From a virus: a stretch of 24,316 nt of DNA. Location: the IMG/VR virus record IMGVR_UViG_3300041809_001097, positions 1-24,316 of that record, one strand, 5' to 3'. The translations under genes and the position numbers were made by a program. Positions 2,201 to 21,078 of the stretch are shown in pieces; positions within the stretch are counted from its first letter, which is position 1, and each line of letters begins with the position of its first letter. Under the pieces are notes generated by a model, which searched no databases, was not told where the DNA came from, and saw nothing but the letters and a program-made list of their open reading frames with translations.

Positions 2201-3036
2201 GGTTTATATCTTACTCCCCTTTTCAAATTTGTCAAGTTTTCAAACAGCTTAGACTTTACTTCTACAAAATACGAATCGCCCCTACAAGGCTTTACCCAGG
2301 CTCTCAGAACCCCTCCAAAGGAGCAACCCCCGTCGATTCCAATGCAATTATTTTTGACAAAAGGAGTTTCGTGTACAGAGTGGCCAAACACAACCGTCCA
2401 ATGGCCATCCCAGAAATCGTACCAAGGATAAGACAGTTCCGGCACGTGCCAAATTCCATCTATTTCGATAGACTTTACAGGAGTGAGTCGGTTAGTTTTT
2501 TCGTTTCTGATAAAATACCTGTTCCTGATGAATTGTTTTGGGTCTTGGTTAAACAAAGAAGGAGATATCCCAGCATGAACGCAAACCACATCATAGGGCT
2601 CAACTGTCCCTTCCTTAGAGAAAAAGACAGCGTGTGGGGCTTGGGCTAGAAACTCCAAACTTGACTCACTAAGTTGCAAGTAAGATTCGGGCAGCTTCAT
2701 TGGTACTTTGTACTTAGGATTTTCTTTGGCCTTTAGCTGGTGGTAATGGTAGCGAATGGGGCGTTCATCATGATTCGATGCAACATTATATATATTTAGT
2801 TCTGGCGTCAAATTATGGATAAACCGTATAACACCCTCAGAATCAGGCCCTCGATCCACCAAATCTCCAAGGAATACAACCGTGTCCTGTATGGTAGGGT
2901 TGATTTTACTCCACAACTCTTTTAGCTCTTCTAGGCAACCATGCACATCTCCAATGGCTACGATTCTTCCTGTGGGGAAGGGTAACTTAAGGACTTGTAC
3001 GGTTTTAGCCGGTTGGAAGAGTTGGGTGTGGGGCAT
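2197..3036 (-). CDS. Calcineurin-like (PPP/ApaH-PrpE type) phosphatase
   Basis: A 279-residue metal-dependent phosphoesterase. The whole PPP signature is visible: GDVHGC (29-34), GDLVDRGPDS (57-66), SNHDE (87-91, where most relatives have GNHE), VHAGISP (153-159), FGHS (217-220) and IDGGCSFGGVLRA (234-246). These supply the two-metal site and the GH histidine. Known relatives remove phosphate from proteins, dinucleoside tetraphosphates or RNA ends; which applies here cannot be told. The start at 3036 is supported by AAGGA five bases upstream, and it overlaps the upstream gene by 32 bases. The adjacent P-loop kinase in the same unit suggests the pair acts on nucleotide or nucleic-acid phosphates (inference). 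Confidence 0.9.
   Translation of the reverse strand: MPHTQLFQPAKTVQVLKLPFPTGRIVAIGDVHGCLEELKELWSKINPTIQDTVVFLGDLVDRGPDSEGVIRFIHNLTPELNIYNVASNHDERPIRYHYHQLKAKENPKYKVPMKLPESYLQLSESSLEFLAQAPHAVFFSKEGTVEPYDVVCVHAGISPSLFNQDPKQFIRNRYFIRNEKTNRLTPVKSIEIDGIWHVPELSYPWYDFWDGHWTVVFGHSVHETPFVKNNCIGIDGGCSFGGVLRAWVKPCRGDSYFVEVKSKLFENLTNLKRGVRYKP
2208..2235 (-). promoter_or_regulatory. Sigma70-type leftward promoter, leaderless geometry
   Basis: The -35 TTGACA (2230-2235) and -10 TAAGAT (2208-2213) are separated by 16 bp, with seven bases from the -10 to the ATG at 2200. It lies inside the 3' end of the phosphatase gene. The -10 and its spacing to the ATG are identical to those of the promoter at 3820. Confidence 0.75.
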
Positions 3037-3307
3037 CTAGATCCTTCAAAATAAGAGCAATAGCTCCAGAGGTTAGTTCAAAATTGTCGCAAGTCTGATC
3101 TGCCAAGTAATGACGCGAAAACTTTTCATAGTATTGGTCGGCTGTTTTAGGGCCATATTCCTTTTCTAGGATAATCCAGGCCGTGTAGTTTGTGGCGGTT
3201 CCATACCAGCCCCACTGGAAATCCATGGGCCAGGGTCTAAGGTCGACGCCATTGCAGGTGATGTGTTTAAATTCATCTCTGGTGCTGAATTTATAAGTGT
3301 TTGACAT
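3005..3307 (-). CDS. DUF6166-like small protein
   Basis: A 100-residue protein with an F.WGW.G motif (about residues 30-35), then an A.IIL helix, G..TA..YY.KF, and a FELTS ending. From memory this order resembles the phage and bacterial DUF6166 family (F.WGY.G, then A..IL, then FK, then a W/F-E-L-T end); no search was run. It begins four bases after the stop of the kinase gene with no clear Shine-Dalgarno, so coupling to the upstream gene is likely. Its end overlaps the phosphatase start by 32 bases. No biochemical role is known to me. Confidence 0.7.
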   Translation of the reverse strand: MSNTYKFSTRDEFKHITCNGVDLRPWPMDFQWGWYGTATNYTAWIILEKEYGPKTADQYYEKFSRHYLADQTCDNFELTSGAIALILKDLDAPHPTLPTG

Positions 3308-3311
3308 GGCT

Positions 3312-3812
3312 TTACATTAGCATTAAGGGGGTCTCGGTGTCAATAACAAAATTGTCGTATTTTCTCGGAATGTTGCAGCTAGCAAAGCGCAGGAACATGT
3401 TTTCAATTGTCTTTTTGGGAACGTTATGGGTGTTCCGTGCAAGGCTAGTTTCTACGCTAACGTTCAAAGTTATGACAACTACCTTATAACCATATGCTTC
3501 AGCGATTTTGATGTAATGCGAAAATTCGTCGTAGGCGGTGTTGGTGTTGTCGACGAAGATTACGTAAACGGAGTTGTTGTGCATGTATTGTATAAATTGA
3601 CGCAAGCATTGGTGGTGGTTTTCTGGCACTAGATTTGCATCAAACTTGTAAGAACCGTCTTTCTGAATCCAGAAAAAATCGGCGCTACAAACTGCCCAGG
3701 AATGGTAAACGTCTTTAACTAGAGACTGCACCAAGGTGCTTTTCCCAGACCCAGGTAGGCCACGAAGAATAATAACAGTTGGTTCCGTTGTATCAATAGC
3801 TATGTCGTTCAT
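3312..3812 (-). CDS. P-loop kinase (AAA_33 / N4BP2-like polynucleotide-kinase type)
   Basis: A 166-residue NTP-binding kinase. The Walker A is GLPGSGKST (18-26). CSADFFW (42-48) occupies the place of the acceptor-site Asp, VDNTNT (87-92) follows a hydrophobic strand as in N4BP2-type kinases, and ARNTHNVP (125-132) supplies the lid arginine. The family phosphorylates polynucleotide 5' ends or small substrates; specificity here is unknown. It heads a leftward unit with a phosphatase two genes on, which recalls kinase/phosphatase end-healing pairs (inference). The ATG lies seven bases from a strong -10 and has no Shine-Dalgarno, so the mRNA is probably leaderless. Confidence 0.88.
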   Translation of the reverse strand: MNDIAIDTTEPTVIILRGLPGSGKSTLVQSLVKDVYHSWAVCSADFFWIQKDGSYKFDANLVPENHHQCLRQFIQYMHNNSVYVIFVDNTNTAYDEFSHYIKIAEAYGYKVVVITLNVSVETSLARNTHNVPKKTIENMFLRFASCNIPRKYDNFVIDTETPLMLM

Positions 3813-3819
3813 AATTCGT

Positions 3820-3847
3820 ATCTTAGCATAATTTTAAGCCCTGTCAA
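3820..3847 (-). promoter_or_regulatory. Sigma70-type leftward promoter, leaderless geometry
   Basis: TTGACA (3842-3847), 16-bp spacer, TAAGAT (3820-3825), then seven bases to the ATG at 3812. The -35 overlaps the first three bases of the rightward CAACAACAATCTT motif at 3845-3857. Confidence 0.8.
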
Positions 3848-3857
3848 CAACAATCTT
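3845..3857 (+). promoter_or_regulatory. CAACAACAATCTT motif, candidate phage late promoter
   Basis: One of three copies embedded in the 16-base block TGTCAACAACAATCTT. The next gene must start at 3858 or 3864 to keep its first strand, so any transcript start must lie inside or just after the motif. That limits how far downstream initiation can be, if this is a promoter. Confidence 0.5.
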
Positions 3858-3863
3858 TTGAAG

Positions 3864-6110
3864 GTGAGTAATTTATACGTAGCTTGGGACGCTGATCATG
3901 CGGGCCGTCAAATTGGTCAAGCGCGCCTTAATGACCAGCCAGAGGAACTTCGTAGAATATCAAATCTAATAGACTCTGGCAACAAGATTTTCGAAGCTTG
4001 GGCTGTTGAACACGGTGGGTCAATGGTTTCCTGCGGCGGGGACGAAGGGGTGGTAGAAGTAAACCCTAAGGCCCTTCAAGACCTCCCTAAAGTAAAAGAG
4101 AAATACGAAAACCTCCTGCAACTTACTGTCTCTATTGGTATAGGGGTCAAGATGTCAATGGCCTTCGAAGCCCTTATGGCCAGCAAGTTAAGGGGCCGCA
4201 ATAGAATAACGTTTTATGACAAGGAAGTCCAAAAGGAAATAGACCAGGCCAAAACAGGCGAAGATGACGGAAAGAAGAAGATCGTAGATGAATATTTGGC
4301 CAAGCACCAACCGATACATCATACGGGCGAAGGCGGAAGTCAAGAGAGGCAACAGGAGAAATCGTCCAATCCAGAAATTCAAGCCCAGCACTATATTGAC
4401 GAAATGCCCGAAGTACCAGAGGTTCCAGAGGACAAAAGCTTTGAGGACCATTTTAGAGACATTGCGTCAGACCAAGAAAAGAAAGACCAAGCCCTAAAGG
4501 CCTCCAAATCCAAAGATCTTAACGCAATAAAACAAAAAGTAGCTACAGCATTACAAGCCGTCCACAAACAACTTCCTGTACTGGCCCAAATAAAACAAGC
4601 TTCTCCTGATACTTACTCTGCTGTTTTAGGGGTTGTACAAGGATTAATTGCTATGGGCAGGCAATTAAGTGACACAGACCAGCAATTAGCAAAAGCCATT
4701 GGAAGCAACAAAGTGTGGGTCGGTGGTGGTTCCAGAATTCCTGCTATCAATACTCCTGAACGCAAAACCTGGGATAACAACTACAAACAAGCCGTAGCTA
4801 ATTATTTTACTGAAGGCAAGCCGCATTTACTAAAAGAGATTCAAGTTCCTGTAGCTAAATTACTACGTAATCACATGGTAGTTGGGAACGAGCCTAAGAC
4901 CAGACTATATCACAGAATGGTCGCAGCTGGGGATAAAATGCCCCCCATGGTTGTTTCAAAAGAAAGAGGCGGCTACAGGGTTATAGATGGTAACAGACGC
5001 CTAGACGTTGCTCTGGCTAATGGTTTAACTCACGTAGATGCCTTAGTGCCCATGACTAGAAGTGAATTGACTAAAGGGCAAGTGAACATTTATCATAACA
5101 CAAATTTACCCCCTGCTGGTATGTTGGCTACTTCTGAAGGCGGATTGTGTACTTATGATTTGGGAATGGACAAAAGCGATTTGATTTCTGGGGGTGCAGC
5201 TCAAGGAATGTCTCCAGAACAATTTGACCAAGAGCAGCTGGCAATTGGTACTAGCATTGAATTACAAGAGCACACAGACGATGAAGAGCTAGCTCGTGAA
5301 ATTGCAATGGACCATTTGGCCGAGGACCCTGATTACTACAGGGATGAAATCGCAGAAGAGACAGAAGAGAGCAGTGATAAGCCAGAGCCACTAGAAAAAA
5401 TGGCCCTTATTCATAACGACCCTAAAAATCCATTAGTGGTGTATAGGGTCCAGAATGAAAAGGGTGAGGGGCCGTACAGTGGAGAAATATTTGACACAGC
5501 CTTTCAAGCCACTTCAGGTAAGCCCTTTAGTGAAATTCCTGGGCCTATGGTTGATTTTACTTCAAAAGAAAGAGAAAATGAAAGTCCAAGGTGGAGAACA
5601 GGATTAGACCCTGCCTTACGCTTTGCTTTTGAGACTCCACAACATGCGGTTGATTGGTTTGGAGAAAAAGGAATTAAACAGCTAACAGATAAAGGCTACC
5701 CTATCACCCCTGTAAAGGCTAAAAAGGTGTTTAGAGGAAAATCTGGCAAGCAAGTGATGTTTATTCCACATGAGTCAGAAAAGGCACTTCTAATGGCTAA
5801 GTCTGATTGGGATATGTCAGAAGACAAAGAAGAACTAGACCCTTCTGCCCCTGTTCCTAATAATAAGGTATTGAATAAAGACGCAGTACCAGAACATATA
5901 AAGTCAATTAGAGCCCATCATAATTTGGTACCCGGAGAGGTATTAGATAGCCGACATATTGTAGTTAGTACCCCATCGGGTAAGAACGCGGTGCGTGAAG
6001 TTGCTAGCGGTATGGTCAGGGATTTGTCTGACACTGTATCTAATCCTATTGGCCCAGGGCAGGGTAACCCTACTAGTGCTAGGAACAAACCTTCTAGAGG
6101 CGCTAAGTAA
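3864..6110 (+). CDS. Multidomain protein: GGDEF/mCpol-like palm, ParB-like, DUF5661-like and YRV/GPY domains
   Basis: About 748 residues (numbers below count from the TTG at 3858). Residues 6-120 read as a palm of the GGDEF/Cas10/minimal CRISPR polymerase class: a strand then DADHAG (D11, D13), SCGGDEG (58-64), LTVSIGIG (89-96) and KLRGRNRITFY (110-120). Residues 325-400 resemble a ParB N-domain: a PPMVV strand, YRVIDGNRRLDVA, then HVDALV. Residues 456-497 resemble DUF5661 (EHTDD...REIAMDHLAEDPDYY). Residues 525-640 hold VVYRVQNEKGEGPY, RFAFET and a terminal VMFIPHE; I know this arrangement from small phage ORFs but not its role. Residues 130-215 are charged and probably disordered. GTG 3864 and TTG 3858 are both possible starts. 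Position in the virion block suggests a structural or injected (polyvalent) protein. Catalysis is not proven. Confidence 0.7.
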   Translation: MSNLYVAWDADHAGRQIGQARLNDQPEELRRISNLIDSGNKIFEAWAVEHGGSMVSCGGDEGVVEVNPKALQDLPKVKEKYENLLQLTVSIGIGVKMSMAFEALMASKLRGRNRITFYDKEVQKEIDQAKTGEDDGKKKIVDEYLAKHQPIHHTGEGGSQERQQEKSSNPEIQAQHYIDEMPEVPEVPEDKSFEDHFRDIASDQEKKDQALKASKSKDLNAIKQKVATALQAVHKQLPVLAQIKQASPDTYSAVLGVVQGLIAMGRQLSDTDQQLAKAIGSNKVWVGGGSRIPAINTPERKTWDNNYKQAVANYFTEGKPHLLKEIQVPVAKLLRNHMVVGNEPKTRLYHRMVAAGDKMPPMVVSKERGGYRVIDGNRRLDVALANGLTHVDALVPMTRSELTKGQVNIYHNTNLPPAGMLATSEGGLCTYDLGMDKSDLISGGAAQGMSPEQFDQEQLAIGTSIELQEHTDDEELAREIAMDHLAEDPDYYRDEIAEETEESSDKPEPLEKMALIHNDPKNPLVVYRVQNEKGEGPYSGEIFDTAFQATSGKPFSEIPGPMVDFTSKERENESPRWRTGLDPALRFAFETPQHAVDWFGEKGIKQLTDKGYPITPVKAKKVFRGKSGKQVMFIPHESEKALLMAKSDWDMSEDKEELDPSAPVPNNKVLNKDAVPEHIKSIRAHHNLVPGEVLDSRHIVVSTPSGKNAVREVASGMVRDLSDTVSNPIGPGQGNPTSARNKPSRGAK

Positions 6111-7156
6111 TGGGTCTAGATAGTCTTTCCCCACAAGATCGGCCGTTAAATGCGCAAGCGATATTGCCGGCCGTTCAGGGGGTGTTTCAGTCTGATATTT
6201 TGATTAGACAGGCCCTAATCATTGGATTCAACGACTTGCGTCAAAATCCGTGGCAGTTACAATTAGTCTTTAACGGATTGCGTTATGACAATTTCACTAA
6301 AGAACAGTACGGCGAAAAGGAAATAACTAAAGCTGTCAATTGGTTTTTGAAGACAGAAATCCCGGTGGTTATGGACTACAATTTAACTAGCAGTCCTGCA
6401 ATGCCTATAGTCGTAGTTTCATTGGATAGTTGTACAGAGGCTGAGGCAACATTAGGGGACCTCCATTACGAAACTGAAGAATCAACTCCAGCAGAATGGC
6501 AACCTCTGACGCAAAAGTTCGTAGGCAATTACAATGCTACCACAGGGGTGTTGATTCCAAGCATTCCAGTAATAGTCAATACCCAAATGGTGTTGGTTGA
6601 TGGTGCTGGGAATAGGTACCCGATTCTAGACCTTTTCACAGATCCAATTACAAGTAACTGTTATCCTATAATACAAAAGGGCCTCAACACTGATTTTAAC
6701 AATTGTGTTTTGGAATGGGCCTCTAGCAAACTGTCTGTGCAACTGGAATCCTGCAACTTCAAGGAGACTTACAACATAATCTGCAATGCTAAGGGAGAGG
6801 CCTCGGAACTATTGTATTTGTGGTCTATTGTAATGTATTCTTTGATGCGGTACAAGAAAACCTTGTTGGAAGGGCGCGGTTTTGAACGTACAGTCATTTC
6901 ATCCACTAAGGTAATGACTAACAACTCTTTGGCTCCTGTGGGGTCGGAGAACGTGTGGAGTCGCGTCATTAGTATCACTGGCTTTAACAAGATGACCTGG
7001 GCACGCACTGTATCAGACAAAATTACCCAAGCTTCTTTTGGCCCAGACAGCTTGAACGTGAGTCAAATCAATTTTCTGCCCAATCAATTTGAAACTGATT
7101 CTAGCTTGATTGACCCTGGATTCCTGACTGGTGACGGAATAGGAGTATCTGTGTAA
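6110..7156 (+). CDS. Conserved virion-like protein, unknown function
   Basis: A 348-residue protein starting in a TAATG overlap with the gene before it, with AGAGG upstream. The N-terminal third is helical (LIRQALIIGFNDLRQNPW, then YGEKEITKAVNWFLKTEIPVVM). The middle contains repeated short strands with CTEAEATLGDLHYETEE and FVGNYNATTGVLIPS, as expected of a beta-rich virion component. A central helix (EASELLYLWSIVMYSLMRYK) precedes a second strand-rich part. No enzyme motif is visible. Being between the large multidomain gene and the sheath, a neck, tail-terminator or connector role is possible but only inferred. Confidence 0.7.
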   Translation: MGLDSLSPQDRPLNAQAILPAVQGVFQSDILIRQALIIGFNDLRQNPWQLQLVFNGLRYDNFTKEQYGEKEITKAVNWFLKTEIPVVMDYNLTSSPAMPIVVVSLDSCTEAEATLGDLHYETEESTPAEWQPLTQKFVGNYNATTGVLIPSIPVIVNTQMVLVDGAGNRYPILDLFTDPITSNCYPIIQKGLNTDFNNCVLEWASSKLSVQLESCNFKETYNIICNAKGEASELLYLWSIVMYSLMRYKKTLLEGRGFERTVISSTKVMTNNSLAPVGSENVWSRVISITGFNKMTWARTVSDKITQASFGPDSLNVSQINFLPNQFETDSSLIDPGFLTGDGIGVSV

Positions 7157-7332
7157 TGTTTACCAAAGAGCAAATACTGGGGAAGTTTTTGGCAGCACTG
7201 CGTAAAGATGTAGCCAATCCTTTCCCAGAATACAAAGAAGCGTTACCAGAATTAAAGGACCATCCTATTTTTAGTGGTGCGCAGTCTGTGGGGTTCATCT
7301 CAGGAGAAAGTCCCAAGTGGTTACAGCAATGA
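7156..7332 (+). CDS. Small hypothetical protein (58 aa)
   Basis: An open frame with its ATG overlapping the previous stop (TAATG), starting MFTKEQILGKFLAALRKD and ending with WLQQ. It has an amphipathic N-terminal helix and a Pro/Glu-rich middle. The tight junctions on both sides and translatable composition favour a real gene. Function unknown. Confidence 0.6.
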   Translation: MFTKEQILGKFLAALRKDVANPFPEYKEALPELKDHPIFSGAQSVGFISGESPKWLQQ

Positions 7333-7409
7333 AAGAAGTGACCAAGAAGGAAGTAATTGATTTATTGCTACAGGCGTTAAGGAAAAGTATTGGTAGAGCG
7401 GTTCGGTAA
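7329..7409 (+). CDS. Micro-ORF (26 aa)
   Basis: The ATG overlaps the TGA of the 58-residue gene as ATGA. It encodes a single basic helix, MKEVTKKEVIDLLLQALRKS then IGRAVR. AGGAG lies about 30 bases upstream, too far to be its ribosome site, so translation would depend on coupling. The repeated MxTKEQIL / VTKKEVIDLL theme in both small ORFs hints that they are related or that a frame was split. Real but uncertain. Confidence 0.4.
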   Translation: MKEVTKKEVIDLLLQALRKSIGRAVR

Positions 7410-7425
7410 TTTGTATCTTTGTGCG

Positions 7426-7436
7426 ACAACAATCTT
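7426..7436 (+). promoter_or_regulatory. ACAACAATCTT motif, candidate late promoter
   Basis: A close match to the CAACAACAATCTT element, 27 bases before the ATG at 7464, which has its own AAAAGG ribosome site. It is followed by an AT-rich ATATAGTAA stretch. Confidence 0.5.
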
Positions 7437-7463
7437 ATATAGTAACAAAAGGCTCAATAACAC

Positions 7464-9020: not shown

Positions 9021-9022
9021 TG

Positions 9023-9034
9023 AACACCAATCTT
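9023..9034 (+). promoter_or_regulatory. AACACCAATCTT motif, candidate late promoter of the sheath gene
   Basis: A variant of the CAACAATCTT element placed 17 bases before the sheath ATG, which has a GGAGAG ribosome site. Position before the most abundant tail gene supports a late-promoter reading. Confidence 0.45.
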
Positions 9035-9051
9035 ATAACGGAGAGTAAATA

Positions 9052-11583
9052 ATGTCTTTATCATACACTACAACTGACGGCCAGACCCTAATTGTTCCTG
9101 GTGCATACGCTGAAGCCCAAGTCGTTTCAACTCCTTCTACTCTAGCCGCCAACGGTATTCTAATGGTAATTGGCGAAGCTAACTCTGGTCCCGATTTCAC
9201 CCTTGAGTCTGACCTAAGCAAGAACACCTTTGGCCCAGACCAACAGTCAGACATTATCGCCAAGTATGGTTCGGGTAGATTGGTAGACGCTTTCGTAGGT
9301 GCTGTATCTGCCTCTAATGACAACAACATCATGGGCAGCTTTACTTCTTTTGTGCCTGTAAAGACCAACGTATCAGTACAGGCTTCTGGGACTCTTACAA
9401 ACTTCCTTAGCGGCGTGTATTCAAATGTGGTTGCAATTGCCGGAGGCGCTAATGGCAACCTAATCACTACTACTGTTACCTCTCCTCAAGGTGAACTGTC
9501 TCCTTCTACCGGGAGTTTTATTCTAGCCTCTCCCCAAGTTGCCACTACCGTTTCTGCAGTTGTCAATGGTGGCGCAGTTGTAACGTCTAGCAGCATGAGC
9601 GCCGGGGCTACTCCAGCTACTCTAGTCACAGACTTAAGTCCCCTAACCGGCGTAACTGTTACAGGCGGTGCTGCAAGAGGCCTTCTAAATAGCACTGTGG
9701 CAATTACCCTTGGCAATGTTAATGGATACCAAGCCACTTTTACAATTACCACCGCTGCTACTAACTGGCACGTAGCTCCTTCTGTTGGAGATATCCTTTA
9801 TATTGGGTCTGGTTCTGGCTTTACTTCTGGTGGCCATGCTGGAAACGCTGGTACCTATGTTGTCCAAGCTGTTTCAAGCAATACACTGACTGCTCTGAAG
9901 GTAATTGATATTTCTGGTACTGGTGTAACAAGAACTGCTCCTGTGGGGGTTTCTGATGCTTCTACTACAAGCTCAGATATTGAGGCCTATTTGCCAGTTA
10001 ATATCAGTGTTACAAATACAGCAGTTGTTCCTGGACTTGGTAAATCGCTAGAGCTTGCTAACACTTCTACTGGTTCTTTTGCCAATTTGTGCTGGACTTA
10101 CAACACTTCAACACAGACTCTTGCTCAAGCCACTTTCGTTTCTGTTAGTGGTACCCCAGTAGTAATTGTTTCTTCTGAGGAATACCAAGTAGACTTAAAC
10201 GTAGTACTGCAAAAGACAGGGGTATCGGAAAACTGGACCGCTGGTGGAGGCCCTGTTCTTTCTATTGGATATCAAGGGACCACTGCGCAAGCTGTCATTT
10301 CCAATGGCGTCATGACAGTCACTCTTTCGGGTGGTAGTTCTGCCGCACTGTCTCCAATTGTAGTCACCCTAAGCAACTACCCCACTATCGGAGACCTTTG
10401 CCAATACTTTAGTTCCCTAGGTGGTTTTACTGCTGCTCCTACATTGGCTACTTACTCACAGCTAAGCTCAACCTACCTAGACCCAGGCACTTTCAATATC
10501 AATACTGTTTGGGGTGCCCAGACTGGTAGAATCAAGACCGATGGCTACGATTTCCTTACTACTGTAAATGGTGGCTCTACACTAGTTAATCTAGTTCCTA
10601 CTGGCACTCAGACTGCTCTAATCGGATTGCCCAATATTTCTTCACTAGCTTTCTTGTCTGGTGGCTCAAAGGGCTTCACTACTAACGCCATTATTCAAAA
10701 CGCTCTAAACGCTCTACAAGCTGTCAAAGGCAATCTGTTGGTTCCTTTGTTCTCTAATGACGCTACAGTTGATATTGCAGCTGGATTCACAGACCCCAAT
10801 TCAACTTATACCATTGCGTCAATCAATACAGCTGTAAGGGCACACGTATTGCAAATGTCTCAGCTAAAGAGACACCGTCGTAGAATTGCTATACTGTCTA
10901 ATTATGACACTTTCGCAAACAACCAGAACAATGCGGCAAATATTGCTTCATCGCGTTGCTGCATGACCTTCCAGTCAGTCCAAGACAATAACGCTCAAGG
11001 CACACTTACTACCTTTAGGCCCTGGATGACCGCTATTAAAGCTGCTGCAATGCAAGCCGCAGGCGTCTACAAGGATATCACCTGGAAATACACCACAGTT
11101 TCTAGCGCTACTGTTCCACTTGGCGGGTTCAATTACAATATAGAATCTAACTTGGAATCTGCTCTAGGAGCCGGTCTATTGCCTCTATTTTATGATGGTA
11201 GTGGCTGGTCTTGGGTATCTGACCAAACTACTTACAGCGTTGACAACAACTTTGTTTATAACTCACTACAAGCTATGTACTGCTTGGATATGATTATGAA
11301 TGCTCTGGAGCAAAGGATGTCCAGAGCTTTCGTAGGACAATCATTAGCAGATGTTTCGGCCACTACAGCCGTTACGGTGTTCAAGGCCATTTGTGATGAT
11401 TTGATTACCCAGAAGTTGATTGCTCCTAGTGATGATGCTCCAAGAGGGGTCAAGAACATTGTAATCAAGATTGTAAACGGGAATGCAATGGTGGTAGGAG
11501 CAGAAGTAAAAGAAGCTACGAGTTTGAAGTTTGTGGCAATTCAATTGCTTGTATCCGCGATCCAACAAACAGCTACGGGTTAA
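9052..11583 (+). CDS. Contractile tail sheath protein
   Basis: An 843-residue sheath subunit, which surrounds the tail tube and contracts at infection. The N-terminus (LIVPGAYAEAQVV, then a GEANSGPD loop and KYGSGRLVDAF) and the C-terminal part (RRRIAILSNYDTF, an FRPW segment followed by AAAMQAAGVY, then PRGVKNIVIKIVNGNAMVV and an Ala/Val-rich end) fit the known sheath architecture. It is longer than typical sheaths (T4 gp18 is 659 residues). The excess lies in a Ser/Thr/Gly-rich, strand-forming insert at roughly residues 110-440, likely a surface domain. It has a GGAGAG ribosome site. The tube gene follows after 19 bases, the usual order. Confidence 0.92.
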   Translation: MSLSYTTTDGQTLIVPGAYAEAQVVSTPSTLAANGILMVIGEANSGPDFTLESDLSKNTFGPDQQSDIIAKYGSGRLVDAFVGAVSASNDNNIMGSFTSFVPVKTNVSVQASGTLTNFLSGVYSNVVAIAGGANGNLITTTVTSPQGELSPSTGSFILASPQVATTVSAVVNGGAVVTSSSMSAGATPATLVTDLSPLTGVTVTGGAARGLLNSTVAITLGNVNGYQATFTITTAATNWHVAPSVGDILYIGSGSGFTSGGHAGNAGTYVVQAVSSNTLTALKVIDISGTGVTRTAPVGVSDASTTSSDIEAYLPVNISVTNTAVVPGLGKSLELANTSTGSFANLCWTYNTSTQTLAQATFVSVSGTPVVIVSSEEYQVDLNVVLQKTGVSENWTAGGGPVLSIGYQGTTAQAVISNGVMTVTLSGGSSAALSPIVVTLSNYPTIGDLCQYFSSLGGFTAAPTLATYSQLSSTYLDPGTFNINTVWGAQTGRIKTDGYDFLTTVNGGSTLVNLVPTGTQTALIGLPNISSLAFLSGGSKGFTTNAIIQNALNALQAVKGNLLVPLFSNDATVDIAAGFTDPNSTYTIASINTAVRAHVLQMSQLKRHRRRIAILSNYDTFANNQNNAANIASSRCCMTFQSVQDNNAQGTLTTFRPWMTAIKAAAMQAAGVYKDITWKYTTVSSATVPLGGFNYNIESNLESALGAGLLPLFYDGSGWSWVSDQTTYSVDNNFVYNSLQAMYCLDMIMNALEQRMSRAFVGQSLADVSATTAVTVFKAICDDLITQKLIAPSDDAPRGVKNIVIKIVNGNAMVVGAEVKEATSLKFVAIQLLVSAIQQTATG

Positions 11584-12656: not shown

Positions 12657-12663
12657 GTTCTTT

Positions 12664-12691
12664 ATGGTAACATGTTTTAATCGTTTGTCAA
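12664..12691 (-). promoter_or_regulatory. Sigma70-type leftward promoter of the HNH gene
   Basis: TTGACA (12686-12691), 16-bp spacer, TACCAT (12664-12669), seven bases to the ATG at 12656. No ribosome site is evident, so a leaderless mRNA is predicted. Confidence 0.7.
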
Positions 12692-12706: not shown

Positions 12707-12734
12707 TTGACTTTTTGCGTTTTGGGAGTATACT
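12707..12734 (+). promoter_or_regulatory. Sigma70-type rightward promoter, leaderless geometry
   Basis: TTGACT (12707-12712), 16-bp spacer, TATACT (12729-12734), seven bases to the ATG at 12742. It is back to back with the HNH promoter and is the only rightward member of this promoter class that I found. Confidence 0.75.
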
Positions 12735-12741
12735 ATACCCT

Positions 12742-13350: not shown

Positions 13351-13351
13351 G

Positions 13352-13363: not shown

Positions 13364-13378
13364 TTTGTATCTGAACAA

Positions 13379-13421: not shown

Positions 13422-13439
13422 GAAAAGGGAAGAAAAGCG

Positions 13440-14400: not shown

Positions 14401-14414
14401 TTAGGAGTAAGCAA

Positions 14415-14657: not shown

Positions 14658-14897
14658 TTGTACTATTTCCACATCTCTTTTAGCTCTCCCTTTGGCTTTG
14701 GAACATTTTTCTACAAGGGCAAGGAACACCCATTAATGCCCGAAGTGTACAAAGACAGAACCAAGAAGCTAGCAGATGATGTTTATTATCAAACCAAACA
14801 GCTAATTCGGCCAGAGGCCATTGTTTTTATTGGGCTACATGAATTGCCTTTGGAGGTAGCTAAGGCAAAGTGGCCCGAGGATTTCAAGGAGGGGTAA
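14658..14897 (+). CDS. Hypothetical protein (79 aa)
   Basis: It starts with TTG directly after the TAA of the previous gene, with GAGGA seven bases upstream. The N-terminus is strand-like and aromatic (YYFHISFSSPFGFGTFFYKG); a central helix is followed by EAIVFIGLHELP. It looks like a small alpha/beta protein with no recognised family. The next gene begins two bases after it ends. Confidence 0.6.
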   Translation: MYYFHISFSSPFGFGTFFYKGKEHPLMPEVYKDRTKKLADDVYYQTKQLIRPEAIVFIGLHELPLEVAKAKWPEDFKEG

Positions 14898-14898
14898 A

Positions 14899-15306
14899 AT
14901 GGGACACTGGTGTAAATACTGTAGGGAGATGTGCTACTGTACCTGCGATGTGATAGACTGTACTCATACTGAATGCCCTGAACGTATGTCTGCATATTAT
15001 GACCCACCTCCTCCGTTTCCAAAGCTAAAGTCTGGCATCTTAAGTTGGCGTTTGTTGGCGTTTTCTGCTAGTTTTGGTAAAGGGATAGCCCAGAATCTGT
15101 ACACAAAGCGTTATTTTATTGTAGACTGTTTGAAGGAACCTGAGCTGCTAGACGGCAAGAACATCAACACCATTTTCTATGACGCAATAGTGTATTCCAA
15201 TTACAGGTTGTGTAGTATTGCCTTCAGTAGAGTCGAGGACGTGGACAACTTCCTGAGGGCAGAAGTGTTCAAGAAGTATTGTCAGAGGCCTTGGGTAGTT
15301 CCTTAG
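14899..15306 (+). CDS. Cys-rich N-terminus hypothetical protein (135 aa)
   Basis: A strong AAGGAGGGG ribosome site precedes the ATG. The first 30 residues hold eight cysteines (CKYCREMCYCTCDVIDC, then C at TEC), enough for one or two zinc sites. The rest has no recognisable motif; it is a basic, mixed alpha/beta segment ending CQRPWVVP. Function unknown. Confidence 0.7.
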   Translation: MGHWCKYCREMCYCTCDVIDCTHTECPERMSAYYDPPPPFPKLKSGILSWRLLAFSASFGKGIAQNLYTKRYFIVDCLKEPELLDGKNINTIFYDAIVYSNYRLCSIAFSRVEDVDNFLRAEVFKKYCQRPWVVP

Positions 15307-15318
15307 TATCCTTCCCAG

Positions 15319-15327
15319 CACAATCTT
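15319..15327 (+). promoter_or_regulatory. CACAATCTT motif, weak candidate late promoter
   Basis: A partial copy of the CAACAATCTT element, 32 bases before the ATG at 15360, which has a strong AAGGAGGG site. Confidence 0.3.
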
Positions 15328-15359
15328 TAATGTAGTCTTCGTTTAAGGAGGGCTTACAA

Positions 15360-15797
15360 ATGCTAAAAGATATGCGCTGGAGGCGTGCTTGCTTCCCCTT
15401 GATGGTTTTGTACAGCCCTATTTTGCGCTTGCGTTACATATGTGCGTTAGACAAATGCTGCGATGAACTAAACGCCCTCCTAGACCTGCCTGTTTTCACC
15501 ACCCCCGCTAAGGCCTCTAACAAGCTCGCTGTTGATATAGAAGTCCACAAGGCTAGATTACCCTCCCAAGTAATTTATGTAGCGGACAGCGAAGCCCGTA
15601 AAGCTACAGTTGGGTCTATAGAGCTGTTTCGGGACTTGGGAGGAGATCTGGATTCAGGAATTGTTTATCTACCTGAGTCAGAAACAAACGCCTATTCGAC
15701 GCTAGACGTTACGATGCTGGAACTTTGTCATTTATTGGGCGATAAAGACGTTGGGGGACTAAAATTGGTGTATTCAACAACAATCTTAATGAGGTAA
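15360..15797 (+). CDS. Hypothetical protein (145 aa)
   Basis: It has a strong ribosome site (AAGGAGGG). The N-terminus is basic and hydrophobic (RRACFPLMVLYSPILRLRY), perhaps membrane-associating, followed by CALDKCCDELNALLDL and a mixed alpha/beta C-terminus. The final 20 bases overlap the CAACAACAATCTT motif that precedes the next gene, so the end of this protein (STTILMR) is written by the motif. Function unknown. Confidence 0.65.
   Translation: MLKDMRWRRACFPLMVLYSPILRLRYICALDKCCDELNALLDLPVFTTPAKASNKLAVDIEVHKARLPSQVIYVADSEARKATVGSIELFRDLGGDLDSGIVYLPESETNAYSTLDVTMLELCHLLGDKDVGGLKLVYSTTILMR
15775..15787 (+). promoter_or_regulatory. CAACAACAATCTT motif, candidate late promoter
   Basis: A full 13-base match lying inside the 3' end of the previous gene and 20 bases before the ATG at 15808. 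Unlike the copies at 3845, 19634 and 21076, it is not preceded by TGT, and no leftward gene starts here. Confidence 0.55.
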
Positions 15798-15807
15798 AGG
15801 TTGTAAC

Positions 15808-16248
15808 ATGACATATAAACCCAACGGCCCCCTTCCTATTGCCCCAAACGACAATAAGGCTTCGGAGTCCTTTTTCGTTGGGGATAGTGTTGGAAGGATA
15901 GGTCGTCTCGAAAATCAAATGAACCAAATCCTTATCGAATTTACCCCAGTCTTAGGAACAGTAGCTGAAGCTGTAAAAGGGCTGGGGACTTCTCTAGAAG
16001 ATATCAAAATTGATTTGAGAGAAGTAAGGAAAGATTGTAGTGAATTCAAGGTTAAGTCTAGCACGTTTGAAGTTAAGATTCAAGAGCTAGAGGCGGCTAA
16101 AACCAAAGGGGAGGATTACTACATAGGACAGCGAATAGATGAGCGCAAAGGGAGAATAGATCGCAGGAACAGGATTTTGGGAATTATAGGAACGGCTGTC
16201 GCAAGTGTTGCGGTAGCTGTTGTTGTGACTTGGCTCCATTTGAAATAG
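15808..16248 (+). CDS. Tail-anchored coiled-coil membrane protein
   Basis: A 146-residue protein. Residues 30-100 are helical with heptad-like spacing (RLENQMNQILIEF, EDIKIDLREVRKD, KIQELEAAK), residues 108-122 are very basic, and residues 123-143 form one membrane segment at the extreme C-terminus. This gives a cytoplasmic coiled coil anchored in the inner membrane. A spanin, lysis or membrane-scaffold role is possible, but nothing specific is visible. It is the first gene after a full late-type motif and is followed at 10 bases by the membrane HExxH gene, which may be its partner. Confidence 0.75.
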   Translation: MTYKPNGPLPIAPNDNKASESFFVGDSVGRIGRLENQMNQILIEFTPVLGTVAEAVKGLGTSLEDIKIDLREVRKDCSEFKVKSSTFEVKIQELEAAKTKGEDYYIGQRIDERKGRIDRRNRILGIIGTAVASVAVAVVVTWLHLK

Positions 16249-16257
16249 GAGTATACC

Positions 16258-16947
16258 ATGGATGAGAACCAAAAGGTATCGCAGACTTTAGCACTGATTA
16301 AGCAGTTCTGTCCCAACTACAAAATAGTTCTCAAGAGCCAGTCTACTGTAAACAAGGTCATTGGGTGGATTTTAAGCAAGGTAGGCAATAGTGGGTATAT
16401 GTCGGATTTCTTTACCACCCTGGGCCAAACCACCTATGTTCCAACCTGTTGCGAAAGTGCTTATATTCCTGGTATGTGGCAGATTTTGATGCATGAGGGC
16501 CAACACGCCCAAGACGCTGCTAAAATCGGGAACGTAACGTTTGGGGTACTTTACTTGCTTCCTCAATTGATTGGTGTATTGGGTATTGTTTACGCTATTG
16601 TTATGGGGATTCTGTTGCTGTGTGGAGGCCCTTTGTCTTTGCTGTGGGGTTTGTTAGCTTTAGTTTGTTTAGCTCCTATTCCAGCATTTGGCAGGGCTTA
16701 TTTGGAAGTTCGGGGATACACAGTTACTTTGGCTTCTATGTATTGGAGTGGGACTTACAATTCAAGCGTGATACCCTGGATTGTAGGGAACTTTACGGGA
16801 GGCGCTTATTACTGGATGTGGCCGTTTGCGTCATGGACTACCAGTTATTTTAACACAAAGCTCCAAGAACTGCAAAACGGTACTTTCGTGCTGACTCCTT
16901 ATTTGGCTGCTTGCAAGACCTTGTCGAAGCAGATTAATTCTCTTTAG
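16258..16947 (+). CDS. Membrane HExxH zinc-metallopeptidase-like protein
   Basis: A 229-residue protein with an AGGAG site. HEGQH at 79-83 followed by AQD fits the HExxH zinc site, and E150 in RAYLEVRGYT, just after the membrane segments, is a candidate third ligand. Two long hydrophobic stretches (about 94-120 and 124-142) lie between these, and a further aromatic-rich region follows. The active site would therefore sit at the membrane face. I recall similar HE..H..D membrane proteins from other phages without a known substrate. Candidate jobs are processing of a membrane or envelope protein during lysis or takeover. The stop overlaps the convergent gene by four bases. Confidence 0.65.
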   Translation: MDENQKVSQTLALIKQFCPNYKIVLKSQSTVNKVIGWILSKVGNSGYMSDFFTTLGQTTYVPTCCESAYIPGMWQILMHEGQHAQDAAKIGNVTFGVLYLLPQLIGVLGIVYAIVMGILLLCGGPLSLLWGLLALVCLAPIPAFGRAYLEVRGYTVTLASMYWSGTYNSSVIPWIVGNFTGGAYYWMWPFASWTTSYFNTKLQELQNGTFVLTPYLAACKTLSKQINSL

Positions 16948-17918
16948 AGCTTAATCGCTGTTACTTGAGGTTCTGGTGCGCCCTCTTCCCAGGAGACAAT
17001 ATGCGCATGCGGCGTAATTCCCTTGTTCCCATCATCGGTCCAGCCACCAGTGTTGATTACCTTGAATTTGTCTCCATAGCTAGAGGTAACTTCAGTGTGG
17101 CCTCCGTAATGGTCGTGCCCTAGAAAGAGGTAGTTTGGGACTGTGAACGACGGCTCTTCTACTCCATAGCTTTCTACCATCATGTCTATGAACCACAGTA
17201 AATTGTGTCCGTTTTGAGCTTGGAATGGTTCTGTGTCTGGAGTTAGTTGACAGTGTAATCTAGGATCGTCTTTTCTTAACAGGTCCCATTCTACTTCTCG
17301 GATTCTGGAATTAGGAGCCCACATCTTAGCCACAAATTCGTCTGTAGCTTCTGTAATATAGTCGAGACTGTTGTCTTTCTTTAAATTGATATTTGGCCTG
17401 GGTGGCATTTCTATTAGTTCCAGGGCGTCATATTCCACTTTGCTCTTTTGGCCAATAATCAAATCGTCTAGGAAGTGACCGTGGTGGAAGTAACAGTTAC
17501 TAAACGCATAAACGGGGAAGTGCAGGTAGGTGTAGTTAGGTGGAGGCACTCCTAGAATAGCAAGAGACATAGAAAGTGGAGAGCTGTTTTCCGTCTTAAT
17601 TAAATCTCTCCAATAGGCATAGTCGTGATTCCCAGGTACGATGTGGAGGTCTCTTATCTTTACGCGGCTAGTCAGTATTTTGAAAAAGCTCTGGCAAGTC
17701 TGCAACGTAAAAGGAGAAATCATATCATCCCCAATTAGCTCGGCATCCTTAGGAATACATCCTTCGAAGAAGTCCCCGTTTAGAATTAGCTTGTACACTT
17801 CTCCACCCGATACCTGTGCAATTTGGCTTGCTAAGTAGTCTTGGGCTTCTGGGGTGTTTAGCTTGGATCTATCGTATCCTAAATGGGTGTCAGAAAGTAC
17901 TATGAAATTGGATGGCAC
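16944..17918 (-). CDS. Calcineurin-like metallophosphoesterase
   Basis: A 324-residue enzyme with the full two-metal motif set: SDTHLG (9-14), NGDFFEG (47-53), PGNHD (95-99), HHGH (145-148) and GHDH (267-270). A roughly 110-residue stretch between the last two motifs is longer than in minimal family members. The start is GTG at 17918, chosen for AAGGA five bases upstream and for the strand that follows directly (NFIVLSDTH). It overlaps the end of the nucleotidyltransferase gene by 19 bases, so the two are translated together. The substrate is unknown; with an RlaP-type partner, a nucleic-acid 3' or 2',3'-phosphate is a reasonable guess. Confidence 0.9.
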   Translation of the reverse strand: MPSNFIVLSDTHLGYDRSKLNTPEAQDYLASQIAQVSGGEVYKLILNGDFFEGCIPKDAELIGDDMISPFTLQTCQSFFKILTSRVKIRDLHIVPGNHDYAYWRDLIKTENSSPLSMSLAILGVPPPNYTYLHFPVYAFSNCYFHHGHFLDDLIIGQKSKVEYDALELIEMPPRPNINLKKDNSLDYITEATDEFVAKMWAPNSRIREVEWDLLRKDDPRLHCQLTPDTEPFQAQNGHNLLWFIDMMVESYGVEEPSFTVPNYLFLGHDHYGGHTEVTSSYGDKFKVINTGGWTDDGNKGITPHAHIVSWEEGAPEPQVTAIKL

Positions 17919-18931
17919 TCTATTCCTTCTTTTATAATTGATTGAACAACTTCATTGATTACGTTTAGGTTTGGTCTTGCTGGTAGTGTAGTTTCCTTCA
18001 GGGCGAGTTGAATCAAAGAATCTACGTCACTAGCCCAGGCCTCAATTTTCTCGAATGGCCAGCTACCTTGACGGATTTCTAATAGTTCCTGGGCGTCGTG
18101 GCGTTTGATTTCTAGTGTGCCAGTTTTTAGACACTCCAGGCATTCTCTATACAATCTAACTAAGTGCATCAAATGCTTCGCGTCATAGCCACACTTTTCT
18201 TCTAGTGCCCGACGCTTAGGGTTCCTGCTCTTGGCCCAATTGTTGTAGGCTTCTTGTTCGGCTCTTAGAGCCGCATATCGCTTTTCTTTGTGTAACAGCT
18301 CAACAAAGTTGGTGTCAAATCCCAATCCCTTAGCAACTTCTCCATACATCTCTAATTGTTGGGTTTTGTCAATAGACCAATCACCAGCAATAGAGTCAAG
18401 AGATTTCTGAACAGAAGCATCAGCGGCGTGTAGCTTGGGAATTAGACTTCTAGCAGGCAATCCAAATTCCTCCCTGGTAGGAATGGATTTATGAGGGGTA
18501 AGTAAATAGGCGCGGTGCGTTCTTATACGGTGCAATTGACTCCGTGCGTAACCAGCGAATGTAGCTGCAATCCTCTTAGACAGGAACATCGACCTTATAG
18601 CCTTCAGCTTACCCCATGCTGGAGTAGTATAAACAATAGAGCTGTCGTCAACAAACAGCAATTCCAGAATGTTAGGATTGTTCTTGACCGCTAAATCAGC
18701 AAACTTCAAAATACTGTAAATTTCAACATCCTGCGGAGCATCACAGCGAGCCTGTTCAAATCTTTCTAAAAACCCAAACACAACACTTGGCGGTAATGTA
18801 CAAACCCCTCGAAAATCCTCATCCGAATCGGGTAAGTTTGTGCCGTAAGCATGACTGCCAGCCCTTGTCAAGAAAATGACATGGTCTTTTAGCCATTTAG
18901 GGTTGTTGGGAATTTGAACGATATCAGGCAT
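17900..18931 (-). CDS. RlaP-like Pol-beta superfamily nucleotidyltransferase
   Basis: A 343-residue protein. GSHAYGTNLPDSDEDFRGV (25-43) is the hallmark of the PF10127/COG3541 family, with D37 and D39 as metal ligands and VEIYSI at about 69-74 giving the third acidic residue. NNPNILELLF (84-93) and the helical C-terminal domain also fit. The family is known as RNA-ligase-associated nucleotidyltransferases, linked by genome context to RNA repair; no ligase is in this window. It has a good AGGAG ribosome site and a TATAAT about 40 bases upstream. It is followed by a metallophosphoesterase in an overlapping arrangement. Confidence 0.88.
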   Translation of the reverse strand: MPDIVQIPNNPKWLKDHVIFLTRAGSHAYGTNLPDSDEDFRGVCTLPPSVVFGFLERFEQARCDAPQDVEIYSILKFADLAVKNNPNILELLFVDDSSIVYTTPAWGKLKAIRSMFLSKRIAATFAGYARSQLHRIRTHRAYLLTPHKSIPTREEFGLPARSLIPKLHAADASVQKSLDSIAGDWSIDKTQQLEMYGEVAKGLGFDTNFVELLHKEKRYAALRAEQEAYNNWAKSRNPKRRALEEKCGYDAKHLMHLVRLYRECLECLKTGTLEIKRHDAQELLEIRQGSWPFEKIEAWASDVDSLIQLALKETTLPARPNLNVINEVVQSIIKEGIECHPIS

Positions 18932-18969
18932 GTGCTCCTGGGTATGGTTTGTGGAAGAAGACTACATAG

Positions 18970-18975
18970 ATTATA
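18970..18975 (-). promoter_or_regulatory. -10 element TATAAT upstream of the nucleotidyltransferase
   Basis: A perfect TATAAT about 38 bases before the ATG at 18931, giving a leader that includes AGGAG. No good -35 at 16 bp is present (TGAAAG), so it differs from the other leftward promoters. Confidence 0.4.
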
Positions 18976-19001
18976 AAGAAAACTAACAAGACTTTCATCG
19001 A

Positions 19002-19247
19002 CTACTCTACTTGCTTGATAGTGAGAACAAGATGTCGTGTAGTAAATTTACTATTGCCATAATTACGGTAAGGAGTCGATTTTCCGGCTTCTTCTTTAGT
19101 GGCGTAGCAAAAAGCTGGAAGATGTTGTAAGAGCTTTTTGAACAAGATTTGCCCATCTGGGATTCTAGTATCCGCGCTCACATACACATCTACTGTAGCC
19201 ATAGGAGTTAGCTTGCGTCGTTTGATTTTTAACAGTGTAGTTTCCAT
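19002..19247 (-). CDS. Small hypothetical protein (81 aa)
   Basis: A compact basic protein, METTLLKIKRRKLTPMATVD then strands VYVSADTRIPD and a KFTTRHLVLTIKQVE end. It lies eight bases behind a near-consensus promoter and has no ribosome site, so the mRNA is probably leaderless. A start at the internal Met (residue 16) is less likely because of the promoter geometry. No family recognised. Confidence 0.65.
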   Translation of the reverse strand: METTLLKIKRRKLTPMATVDVYVSADTRIPDGQILFKKLLQHLPAFCYATKEEAGKSTPYRNYGNSKFTTRHLVLTIKQVE

Positions 19248-19255
19248 ATTTTATA

Positions 19256-19283
19256 ATTATACTCCATTCCTCCAAGAAGTCAA
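19256..19283 (-). promoter_or_regulatory. Sigma70-type leftward promoter, leaderless geometry
   Basis: TTGACT (19278-19283), 16-bp spacer, TATAAT (19256-19261), eight bases to the ATG at 19247. It fills the gap between two leftward genes. Confidence 0.8.
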
Positions 19284-19598
19284 CTAGAAAGGTACTTCAC
19301 CACGTTGCACTGCTCCATAAAAATCTTTGTTGAGTGCTCCGTCTCTGGAGTTGCAATTATGACACAGCAAGTCCAATTGGCCATTCTCGTAATCTTCCTC
19401 GTACCTCTTCATTCTCATTTTAGGGCTTAGCTTTCGGGCCTCATAGTCTTTACCATTTGGGTGGTCTAATTCTAGTTCTTCTGTACTACCGCACATCCTA
19501 CACTTGCCACCCAATTTAATAACAAGGAATGCCCTACGTACCTGGAGCCTAGCCTTTAACTTGAGCCACTCTTTATGGTAATTACGGTTGCGAGGCAT
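19284..19598 (-). CDS. HNH-type nuclease-like small protein
   Basis: A 104-residue protein. GGKCRMCGS (C33, C36), LELDHPNGKDY (DH at 45-46), and LLCHNCNSRDG (C79, C82, N83) give the HNH frame with its zinc knuckle, much as in small bacterial and phage HNH proteins. The N-terminus is strongly basic. It lies ten bases behind a promoter -10 with no clear ribosome site. The core shows no close similarity to the HNH gene at 12132, so it is probably an independent acquisition. Whether it is catalytically active is not certain because the second catalytic residue is not obvious. Confidence 0.78.
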   Translation of the reverse strand: MPRNRNYHKEWLKLKARLQVRRAFLVIKLGGKCRMCGSTEELELDHPNGKDYEARKLSPKMRMKRYEEDYENGQLDLLCHNCNSRDGALNKDFYGAVQRGEVPF

Positions 19599-19608
19599 GG
19601 TTTGGAAT

Positions 19609-19636
19609 AGTCTACCACAACTTCAAAGCCTGTCAA
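19609..19636 (-). promoter_or_regulatory. Sigma70-type leftward promoter
   Basis: TTGACA (19631-19636), 16-bp spacer, TAGACT (19609-19614), ten bases to the ATG at 19598. The -35 overlaps the rightward motif at 19634. Confidence 0.65.
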
Positions 19637-19646
19637 CAACAATCTT
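19634..19646 (+). promoter_or_regulatory. CAACAACAATCTT motif, candidate late promoter
   Basis: A full match, within TGTCAACAACAATCTT, 26 bases before the ATG at 19673. It drives the two virion-like genes if it is a promoter. Confidence 0.55.
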
Positions 19647-19672
19647 TAGAATAGGAAAGTGAGATAACGCAT

Positions 19673-19978
19673 ATGGTCATTCCTGGCGATGAGGTTTCAT
19701 ATAAAAACGTAGTAGGCAAATGGGGCAACAAAGTCCTGTGGGCTATTGGAACAGTTGGAGGCCTTAACCTAATTGAAGCAAGGTCTCCTGGTGGCTCTAG
19801 AGAAATTTTAGGGGCTGGCTCCCATCGCGCAGTAGCCAGACATATTGCTAAAAGGGCCCACCCAGACATTGAATTTACCTTCCTGGAAAAGAGCCAAGAC
19901 GTCGACCCCAGGGACTTCCAGGATATCCTACCTTTTTGGGAGCAAGTTACTATTAGAGCCCAGCAAAAAATTAGCTAA
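19673..19978 (+). CDS. Virion-like hypothetical protein (101 aa)
   Basis: It begins after a GGAAAGTGAG ribosome region. The N-terminal strand pattern is IPGDEVSYKN; SREILGAGSHRAVARHIAKR then HPDIEFTFLEKS is the most distinctive part. There are no enzyme motifs. It ends in a TAATG overlap with the 274-residue gene, so the two are probably made together and may assemble in the same structure. Family not identified. Confidence 0.6.
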   Translation: MVIPGDEVSYKNVVGKWGNKVLWAIGTVGGLNLIEARSPGGSREILGAGSHRAVARHIAKRAHPDIEFTFLEKSQDVDPRDFQDILPFWEQVTIRAQQKIS

Positions 19979-20802
19979 TGGACAGATTCCCCCAAAACCG
20001 TATTCAGCCAATTGAATTCCCTACCGCTACCAGTGTAACCTTTGACTTACAAGGATTTTTGGATGGTATTAGGGCTCATGGGTTACGCTTCATTCATTTT
20101 AGAGCAATGCGCGACCCTTCTGGAATCGTTGACAAATACGACTCCAGAAAGCCTAATCCCCAGAATCCTAGAGCAATTAACGGAATGCATTATAGCAGGG
20201 GTGGTTTGGTAACGGCATTATGTTTAGGCAATACCAAGGAAACCAAGGCTTCCGATGCAGGAGTAGTTGATTCCAGTACGGCTCAGTTTACTCCTTTATT
20301 GCATTACGAAGACACAAACAAAAGGGTGTTTTTGGCTCCTTACGATAGATTGATTTTAGATGACGAAGCTGCGTTGGTGTCTAGGCATGAATTGGTAGAA
20401 AGCTCTCCTACAGGTATAGACCGGCCTAAATTCCCTGCTGTTGAAATCTTGGATTGTGTAGACGCCAGGGGAGTTGCATACCACCAGAACGAAGATTTTG
20501 ACTTAACGCAGGATGGATTGATTATTTGGAAGGATAGAAGGCCTGGACAGGATGTGGATTCGGGTAAAGGAGTGGTTTACTCAATACGTTATGTTTATAG
20601 GCCCTGTTGGTATGTGGTTAGACTAATCCATGAAATTAGAGCCATCCAGCAAGAAGATTATATGACTGGCAAGCGTTATATGGCCCAGGCCCCCCAAAGT
20701 GCTCTAGTACAAAGAGAATACGTGTTTGAAAGTGAAGCTGCCGATAGTGGTACTAGATTAGCCGCAGAAGGGCCAGCTAGCGGCCAAATCACGGCTAGCT
20801 AA
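19978..20802 (+). CDS. Conserved virion structural protein, possibly connector or neck
   Basis: A 274-residue protein. Diagnostic stretches are HGLRFIHFRAMRDPSGIVDK, VYSIRYVYRPCWYVVRLIHE followed by IRA, and QSALVQREYVFES. I recall this combination from uncharacterised virion proteins of other large phages; no search was run. It is strand-rich, with an R-P-x-W-Y-V-V aromatic patch. A role in the head-tail connector or neck is a guess from its type, not shown. The start is a TAATG overlap, and its last eight bases overlap the convergent GD-repeat gene. Confidence 0.65.
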   Translation: MDRFPQNRIQPIEFPTATSVTFDLQGFLDGIRAHGLRFIHFRAMRDPSGIVDKYDSRKPNPQNPRAINGMHYSRGGLVTALCLGNTKETKASDAGVVDSSTAQFTPLLHYEDTNKRVFLAPYDRLILDDEAALVSRHELVESSPTGIDRPKFPAVEILDCVDARGVAYHQNEDFDLTQDGLIIWKDRRPGQDVDSGKGVVYSIRYVYRPCWYVVRLIHEIRAIQQEDYMTGKRYMAQAPQSALVQREYVFESEAADSGTRLAAEGPASGQITAS

Positions 20803-21025
20803 TTAGTCGGCGATAGCGAGGGAAGTACTTGTTCTTTTGAGTCTTAACTTTGATATTGGAAGTGGCTGGATTGATTTTAAACCACCCTCTAGTAGACCTG
20901 TCGTAAGCTTGGTCTCCTGCTTGAAGCACATCGTCATCGCCTAGAATCCTGTATTGCTTCTTGGGCTCTACGATTTCTTTTGTTTGATAAATGCGTTCAA
21001 CTCCGTTGTATCCTTGTTCAGCCAT
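20795..21025 (-). CDS. Single GD-repeat protein, unknown function
   Basis: A 76-residue protein from the ATG at 21025, which has AAAGGA five bases upstream. The longer frame would run back across the promoter and the divergent gene. One repeat: YRILGDDDVLQAGDQAYD, GWFKI, and RYRRLIS at the very end. The 25-residue N-terminal part (MAEQGYNGVERIYQ) is charged. It differs from the other leftward genes in having a leader with a good ribosome site. Confidence 0.78.
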   Translation of the reverse strand: MAEQGYNGVERIYQTKEIVEPKKQYRILGDDDVLQAGDQAYDRSTRGWFKINPATSNIKVKTQKNKYFPRYRRLIS

Positions 21026-21050
21026 TTGTGTCCTTTCGGTTGATTTCTGA

Positions 21051-21078
21051 ATAATAGCATAGTTTAAAATTTTGTCAA
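21051..21078 (-). promoter_or_regulatory. Sigma70-type leftward promoter
   Basis: TTGACA (21073-21078), 16-bp spacer, TATTAT (21051-21056), then a 25-base stretch with AAAGGA before the ATG at 21025. The -35 overlaps the rightward motif at 21076. Confidence 0.8.

Follow-up and report, generated by a model that had tools for sequence, protein, structure and literature searches.

How leftward accessory genes set among the rightward genes of a phage come to be expressed is a question raised by a viral contig of 24,316 nucleotides (24.3 kb; IMG/VR record IMGVR_UViG_3300041809_001097, positions 1 to 24,316, here referred to as the window), which carries contractile-tail genes. The original prediction for this DNA held that seven sigma70-type promoters of the form TTGACW-N16-TANNNT mark an early class of accessory genes, read by the host polymerase and translated from leaderless messages. 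All seven sites are present, six on the minus strand and one on the plus strand (Table 1), against 0.59 expected, and none of 100 dinucleotide shuffles reached seven. At five of them an ATG lies 7 to 8 nt past the -10 box, where the transcript would be expected to begin; this combination of an N16 spacer and a placed ATG has an expectation of 0.015. An exact 16-bp spacer did not survive as a rule, since an eighth site (3314-3343), overlooked because the search pattern fixed the spacer, has N18, and in relatives 17-bp spacers equal or outnumber those of 16 bp. Nor is the class uniformly leaderless, as ATG 21025 has a leader with a Shine-Dalgarno (SD) sequence, AAAGGA. The five leaderless sites had also been described as lacking any usable ribosome site. 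Two of them have no GGAG; at the other three (ATG 2200, 12742, and 19247), a GGAG stands within the promoter directly before the -10 box, and its distance of 13 to 14 nt from the ATG downstream is too great for a good SD.

Judged from its genes, the window is part of a myovirus genome, from a group with Myxococcus phage Mx1 (OR576727) as a relative. The two tail sheaths are 37 to 40% identical, and the homology spans the sheath, the tube, and neighboring genes, with Mx1 gene order kept only in part. Named phages gave no match to the window by megablast, and no viral contig was found when viral contigs were probed with the virion protein at 19978-20802. A 107-kb relative, IMGVR_UViG_3300050025_000126 (G001), came from a search in which the motif AAGATTGTTG and TTGACA-N16-TANNNT were linked in one DNA pattern free of any ATG; it is collinear with the window, at ~50 to 73% amino acid identity for most of the conserved genes. 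The same ATG-free pattern retrieved contigs L010, L014, and L016, the last of which is part of G001. We surveyed nine close-clade and 72 more distant contigs and, separately, 71 contigs found via a sigma factor gene, calling open reading frames (ORFs) with a minimum of 30 codons.

The geometry recurs throughout these relatives. In L010, L014, and L016, an ATG lies exactly 7 nt past the -10 box, which is independent support because ATG was absent from the search pattern. G001 has 14 sites with N16 and 15 with N17 (~2.4 expected for each), and seven of its N16 promoters have an ATG at 7 to 8 nt (0.08 expected). The nine close-clade contigs hold 36 N16 sites against 6.2 expected; a start codon (ATG or GTG) lies at 7 nt for 12 of them (0.10 expected). 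Spacers of 17 bp dominate in the 72 distant contigs (92 versus 17.7 expected), where start codons fall at 6 nt in 12 cases and at 7 nt in 11 (~0.2 expected), and in the 71 sigma-found contigs N17 is combined with a start at 6 nt 10 times against 0.2 expected. What is invariant is the distance of 6 to 8 nt from the -10 box to the start codon, not the length of the spacer, which is 16 bp in close relatives and 17 bp elsewhere. The consensus is degenerate, and some single N16 or N17 matches inside genes surely are chance; for the class as a whole, however, chance matching to a loose consensus is rejected by the shuffles, by permuted -35 words, and by the independently found contigs, and we give it a negligible probability.

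The predicted start codons are themselves conserved. Window starts 12656, 12742, and 3307 agree with orthologous G001 starts 35754, 37112, and 18630, whose promoter sites are 35789 (leaderless), 37076 (leaderless at 8 nt), and 18665 (N17, ATG after 6 nt), and orthologs in L014 and G001 align from the predicted ATG (MENTSKI(V/I)DRI). In the close clade, 17 of 20 leaderless ATGs (85%) are preceded by a pyrimidine, compared with 29 of 109 SD-led ATGs in the same contigs (27%), as expected if the A of the ATG is +1. An SD-like word 4 to 13 nt upstream is found in only 2 of the 20. The -10 boxes could be real and translation could nevertheless begin at downstream SD-led codons, giving leadered messages: the start codons are predicted ones, and in 2 of the 20 close-clade cases an in-frame start accompanied by an SD-like word is present no more than 24 codons downstream. 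The other 18 have none, and this possibility is very unlikely given also the alignment from the predicted ATG in the L014/G001 pair and all three window/G001 pairs and a sharply fixed -10-to-ATG spacing. The GGAG at three window sites raises a further alternative, in which transcription comes from other promoters farther upstream and GGAG serves as a distant ribosome site. We consider this highly unlikely, as the remaining leaderless sites have no GGAG, 13 to 14 nt is a poor SD spacing, and the DNA upstream of many leaderless sites is a divergent promoter rather than a gene in the same direction. As an observation in its own right, GGAG stands directly before the -10 box at window 2208, 12707, and 19256 and at G001 102345, while other leaderless promoters have TGN there.

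Leaderless transcription is well supported by this geometry, from which the transcript starts are predicted. The proposal that a sigma70-type class drives accessory, mostly leftward genes with the ATG at the expected transcript start was replicated both in contigs found without an ATG and in many relatives. Its early, host-polymerase status is suggested by Mx1, in which the element (TTGAC-N17-TANNNT) precedes 37 of 162 minus-strand genes and none of 85 plus-strand genes. In positions 69001-118500 of Mx1 (L067), AGATCC or GGATCT stands within or close to the spacer of many early promoters, resembling a shared operator.

Leaderless messages had been assigned to one early class only, but a late class often shows the same geometry. 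The sequence CAACAATCTT recurs ahead of rightward window genes; this late motif was noticed during exploration and afterwards tested on relatives. In several instances in G001, L010, and L014, and in the window at GTG 3864, a start codon stands exactly 6 nt past its core, CAATCTT. Sheath-related contigs contain 258 distinct copies on the late strand versus 85 antisense copies, and the start codon is at +6 in 39 cases, with no other offset between 0 and 12 exceeding 7. Among ~150 permuted control motifs, the highest count at any offset was 12, from an overlapping word. The late-motif consensus is YAATCTW, which in Mx1 lies within 60 nt of the start of 18 of 85 plus-strand genes and 0 of 162 minus-strand genes; Mx1 genes 36563, 75289, and 121405 are predicted to have leaderless late messages. 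An alignment of 60 sites from the distant set contained no -35 signal upstream of the motif, and the base before the start codon at these sites is mostly a pyrimidine. Late genes of the window often carry SD sites, so the host presumably uses both leaderless and SD-led initiation. A search for ACAATCTT-N5-ATG, in which N5 is one base short of the intended spacing, gave no match in seven contigs, and TGTCAACAACAATCTTT alone gave mostly chance matches outside the clade when run against viral contigs. The late consensus of phage AR9, AACA-N6-TA/G, was considered for CAACAATCTT and rejected because of a mismatch in the distance to the start.

Early and late elements are joined in a bidirectional module, in which a leftward TTGAC-N16/17-TANNNT abuts a rightward GTCAA-N3-CAATCTT. 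GTCAA, the leftward -35 box, is exactly 3 bases from CAATCTT in 15 of 16 close-clade divergent pairs; this gap is variable in distant relatives and Mx1. The window has three modules (3820-3857, 19609-19646, and 21051-21088), and in its clade such modules form the entrance to leftward accessory cassettes that lie among late genes. A position so fixed upstream of TTGAC might instead make CAATCTT (AAGATTG when read leftward) an element of the leftward early promoter resembling an UP (upstream promoter) element, or a regulator binding site, and not a promoter. That explanation is unlikely: CAATCTT occurs without any leftward promoter at window 7427, 9025, and 15778, it shows the strand bias and start-codon peak given above, and in Mx1 it is found only before plus-strand genes.

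In G001 and L014, a leftward cassette with a module lies between the orthologs of window ORFs 3864-6110 and 6110-7156, in gaps of 1440 and 1618 bp; in the window, these two ORFs overlap, with no cassette between them. On the simplest reading, insertion of a leftward accessory cassette into a late operon would supply two promoters fused back to back, an early one for the cassette itself and a late one that restarts the operon on the far side. Because these elements directly adjoin, one polymerase form should exclude the other, and the two could not occupy one module together. The window gene 3864-6110 (ORF as called from 3858) lies in a virion gene neighborhood, has related genes in G001 and Mx1, and matches PF18182 (mCpol, minimal CRISPR polymerase) over N-terminal residues 7 to 120 (E value of 8.5e-12).

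A candidate reader of the late element is the putative sigma factor WNM70309.1 of Mx1, with homologs in most long relatives. Pfam detects only region 2 in these proteins, which end at LRLKG-type sequences, within region 4.1 as read from the alignment; with such a predicted end, the sigma factor should not read a -35 box. The GTCAACAACAATCTT module occurs in exact form in two of the sigma contigs, L171 and L172, whose names place them in the datasets that also yielded G001 and L014. These features are consistent with a phage sigma factor that reads CAATCTT. A 165-kb binned contig labelled Elusimicrobia (L148) has a distant sheath; the assembly to which it belongs also contains a sigma homolog split across two frames. 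The sole lead to a host was a single Elusimicrobia-labelled contig from a binned genome, again with a distant sheath, which is too weak to name the host of the window.

We consider an explanation by two promoter classes, fused back to back in the window's clade, probable. Class E (early; TTGAC-N16/17/18-TANNNT) would be read by the host sigma70 RNA polymerase, mostly on leftward accessory genes, whose RNA would in most cases have the A of the AUG as its first base. Class L (late; CAATCTT at -13 to -7 and no -35 box) would drive rightward structural genes, probably through the host core polymerase with a phage sigma factor that has region 2 but stops short of region 4.2. Part of the L messages would start at the start codon, and others would have an SD leader. 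The explanation draws on sequence geometry and its statistics, conservation, the presence or absence of cassettes, and sigma homologs, and from these it predicts transcript starts, timing, the match of sigma factor to motif, and mutual exclusion.

Several observations weigh against it. Contig counts across relatives reflect shared ancestry and not independent events. Besides window ATG 21025, several E sites in G001 are leadered, and in Mx1, 36 of the 37 E leaders measure 18 to 41 nt, and SD-like sequences are present in most. In the sigma-found contigs, the L spacing peak is weaker, spread as 7, 10, and 5 cases at 6, 7, and 8 nt. G001 is without a sigma gene, probably because it is a fragment; a Pfam search for sigma region 2 in G001 and the window found none. 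Because Mx1 has the same early promoters on leadered, SD-led genes, leaderlessness of early genes appears to depend on lineage, while the underlying promoter architecture is common to both. The fuller proposal, that both temporal classes are leaderless and that the compact module is a standard cassette mouth providing automatic restart of the late operon and a local early-to-late switch by exclusion, may be right or wrong with about equal probability.

Table 1. Promoter elements in the window
Feature	Spacer or sequence	Position	Strand	Distance to start codon (nt)	Start codon and remarks
E promoter	N16	2208..2235	-	7	ATG 2200; predicted leaderless
E promoter	TTGACA-N18-TAATGT	3314..3343	-	6	ATG 3307; predicted leaderless; not in the original prediction
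E promoter	N16	3820..3847	-	7	ATG 3812; left half of bidirectional module
E promoter	N16	12664..12691	-	7	ATG 12656; gene encodes HNH endonuclease
Sigma70-type promoter	N16	12707..12734	+	7	ATG 12742
E promoter	N16	19256..19283	-	8	ATG 19247; predicted leaderless
E promoter	N16	19609..19636	-	10	ATG 19598; left half of bidirectional module
E promoter	N16	21051..21078	-	25 (leader)	ATG 21025; SD AAAGGA; left half of bidirectional module
Late element	GTCAACAACAATCTT	3843..3857	+	6 past CTT	GTG 3864; predicted leaderless start of gene 3864-6110
Late element	CAACAATCTT	7427..7436	+	27 (leader)	ATG 7464
Late element	CACCAATCTT	9025..9034	+		Upstream of tail sheath gene 9052-11583 (SD GGAG)
Late element	ACAATCTT	15320..15327	+	32 (leader)	ATG 15360; SD in leader
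Late element	CAACAATCTT	15778..15787	+	20 (leader)	ATG 15808
Late element	GTCAACAACAATCTT	19632..19646	+	26 (leader)	ATG 19673
Late element	GTCAACAACAATCTT	21074..21088	+	23 (leader)	ATG 21112; SD in leader

Two further observations concern genes of the window. Repeat proteins with YRxLxxGExIxxGDE form a family of leftward genes at 1707-2063, 1988-2200, 20795-21025, and 23442-24302, with many paralogs in G001, and 17900-18931 encodes an RlaP-type nucleotidyltransferase (PF10127) whose G001 ortholog is 73% identical.

The arrangement resembles several known systems in part. T4-type late genes have -10-only promoters of consensus TATAAATA, read with the sigma factor gp55, which is without a complete region 4, together with a sliding clamp and gp33. 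In the window's group, the late element is also -10-only, and the candidate sigma factor may end before a complete region 4; however, the motif is CAATCTT and not TATAAATA, the start codon is often at +1, and no clamp or gp33 requirement is known. Mx1 shares the homologous sheath, tube, and neighboring genes, both promoter classes, and the sigma factor gene, but its early genes are leadered with SD sequences and it has no fixed bidirectional module, whereas most early genes of the window are predicted to be leaderless. Phage AR9 likewise has early and late motif classes, with some genes carrying both promoters, but it has its own multisubunit polymerases, the late motif AACA-N6-TA/G, and long leaders of 26 to 491 nt (PMC5312081). 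Bacterial leaderless (TA-led) genes, for example in Actinobacteria and Deinococcus-Thermus, have TANNNT next to the start codon, ~12 bp before it, and transcripts that begin at the start codon (PMC3160421, PMC12340547). The -10 box of six window promoters similarly ends 6 to 8 nt ahead of the ATG; the differences are the phage setting, a strong -35 box, and the pairing with a second promoter class.

Our literature search found no paper combining CAATCTT with phage and promoter. To our knowledge, the leaderless phage mRNAs described so far are mostly isolated examples such as lambda cI. The start-codon spacing described here suggests leaderless mRNA for whole gene classes across many uncultured phages, and cultured Mx1, which keeps its early leaders, would offer a natural comparison of two initiation modes on the same promoter. 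CAATCTT makes late genes of this group easy to recognize from sequence and points to a conserved phage sigma factor. The bidirectional module, finally, offers a testable account of how accessory genes may settle in late operons without silencing them.

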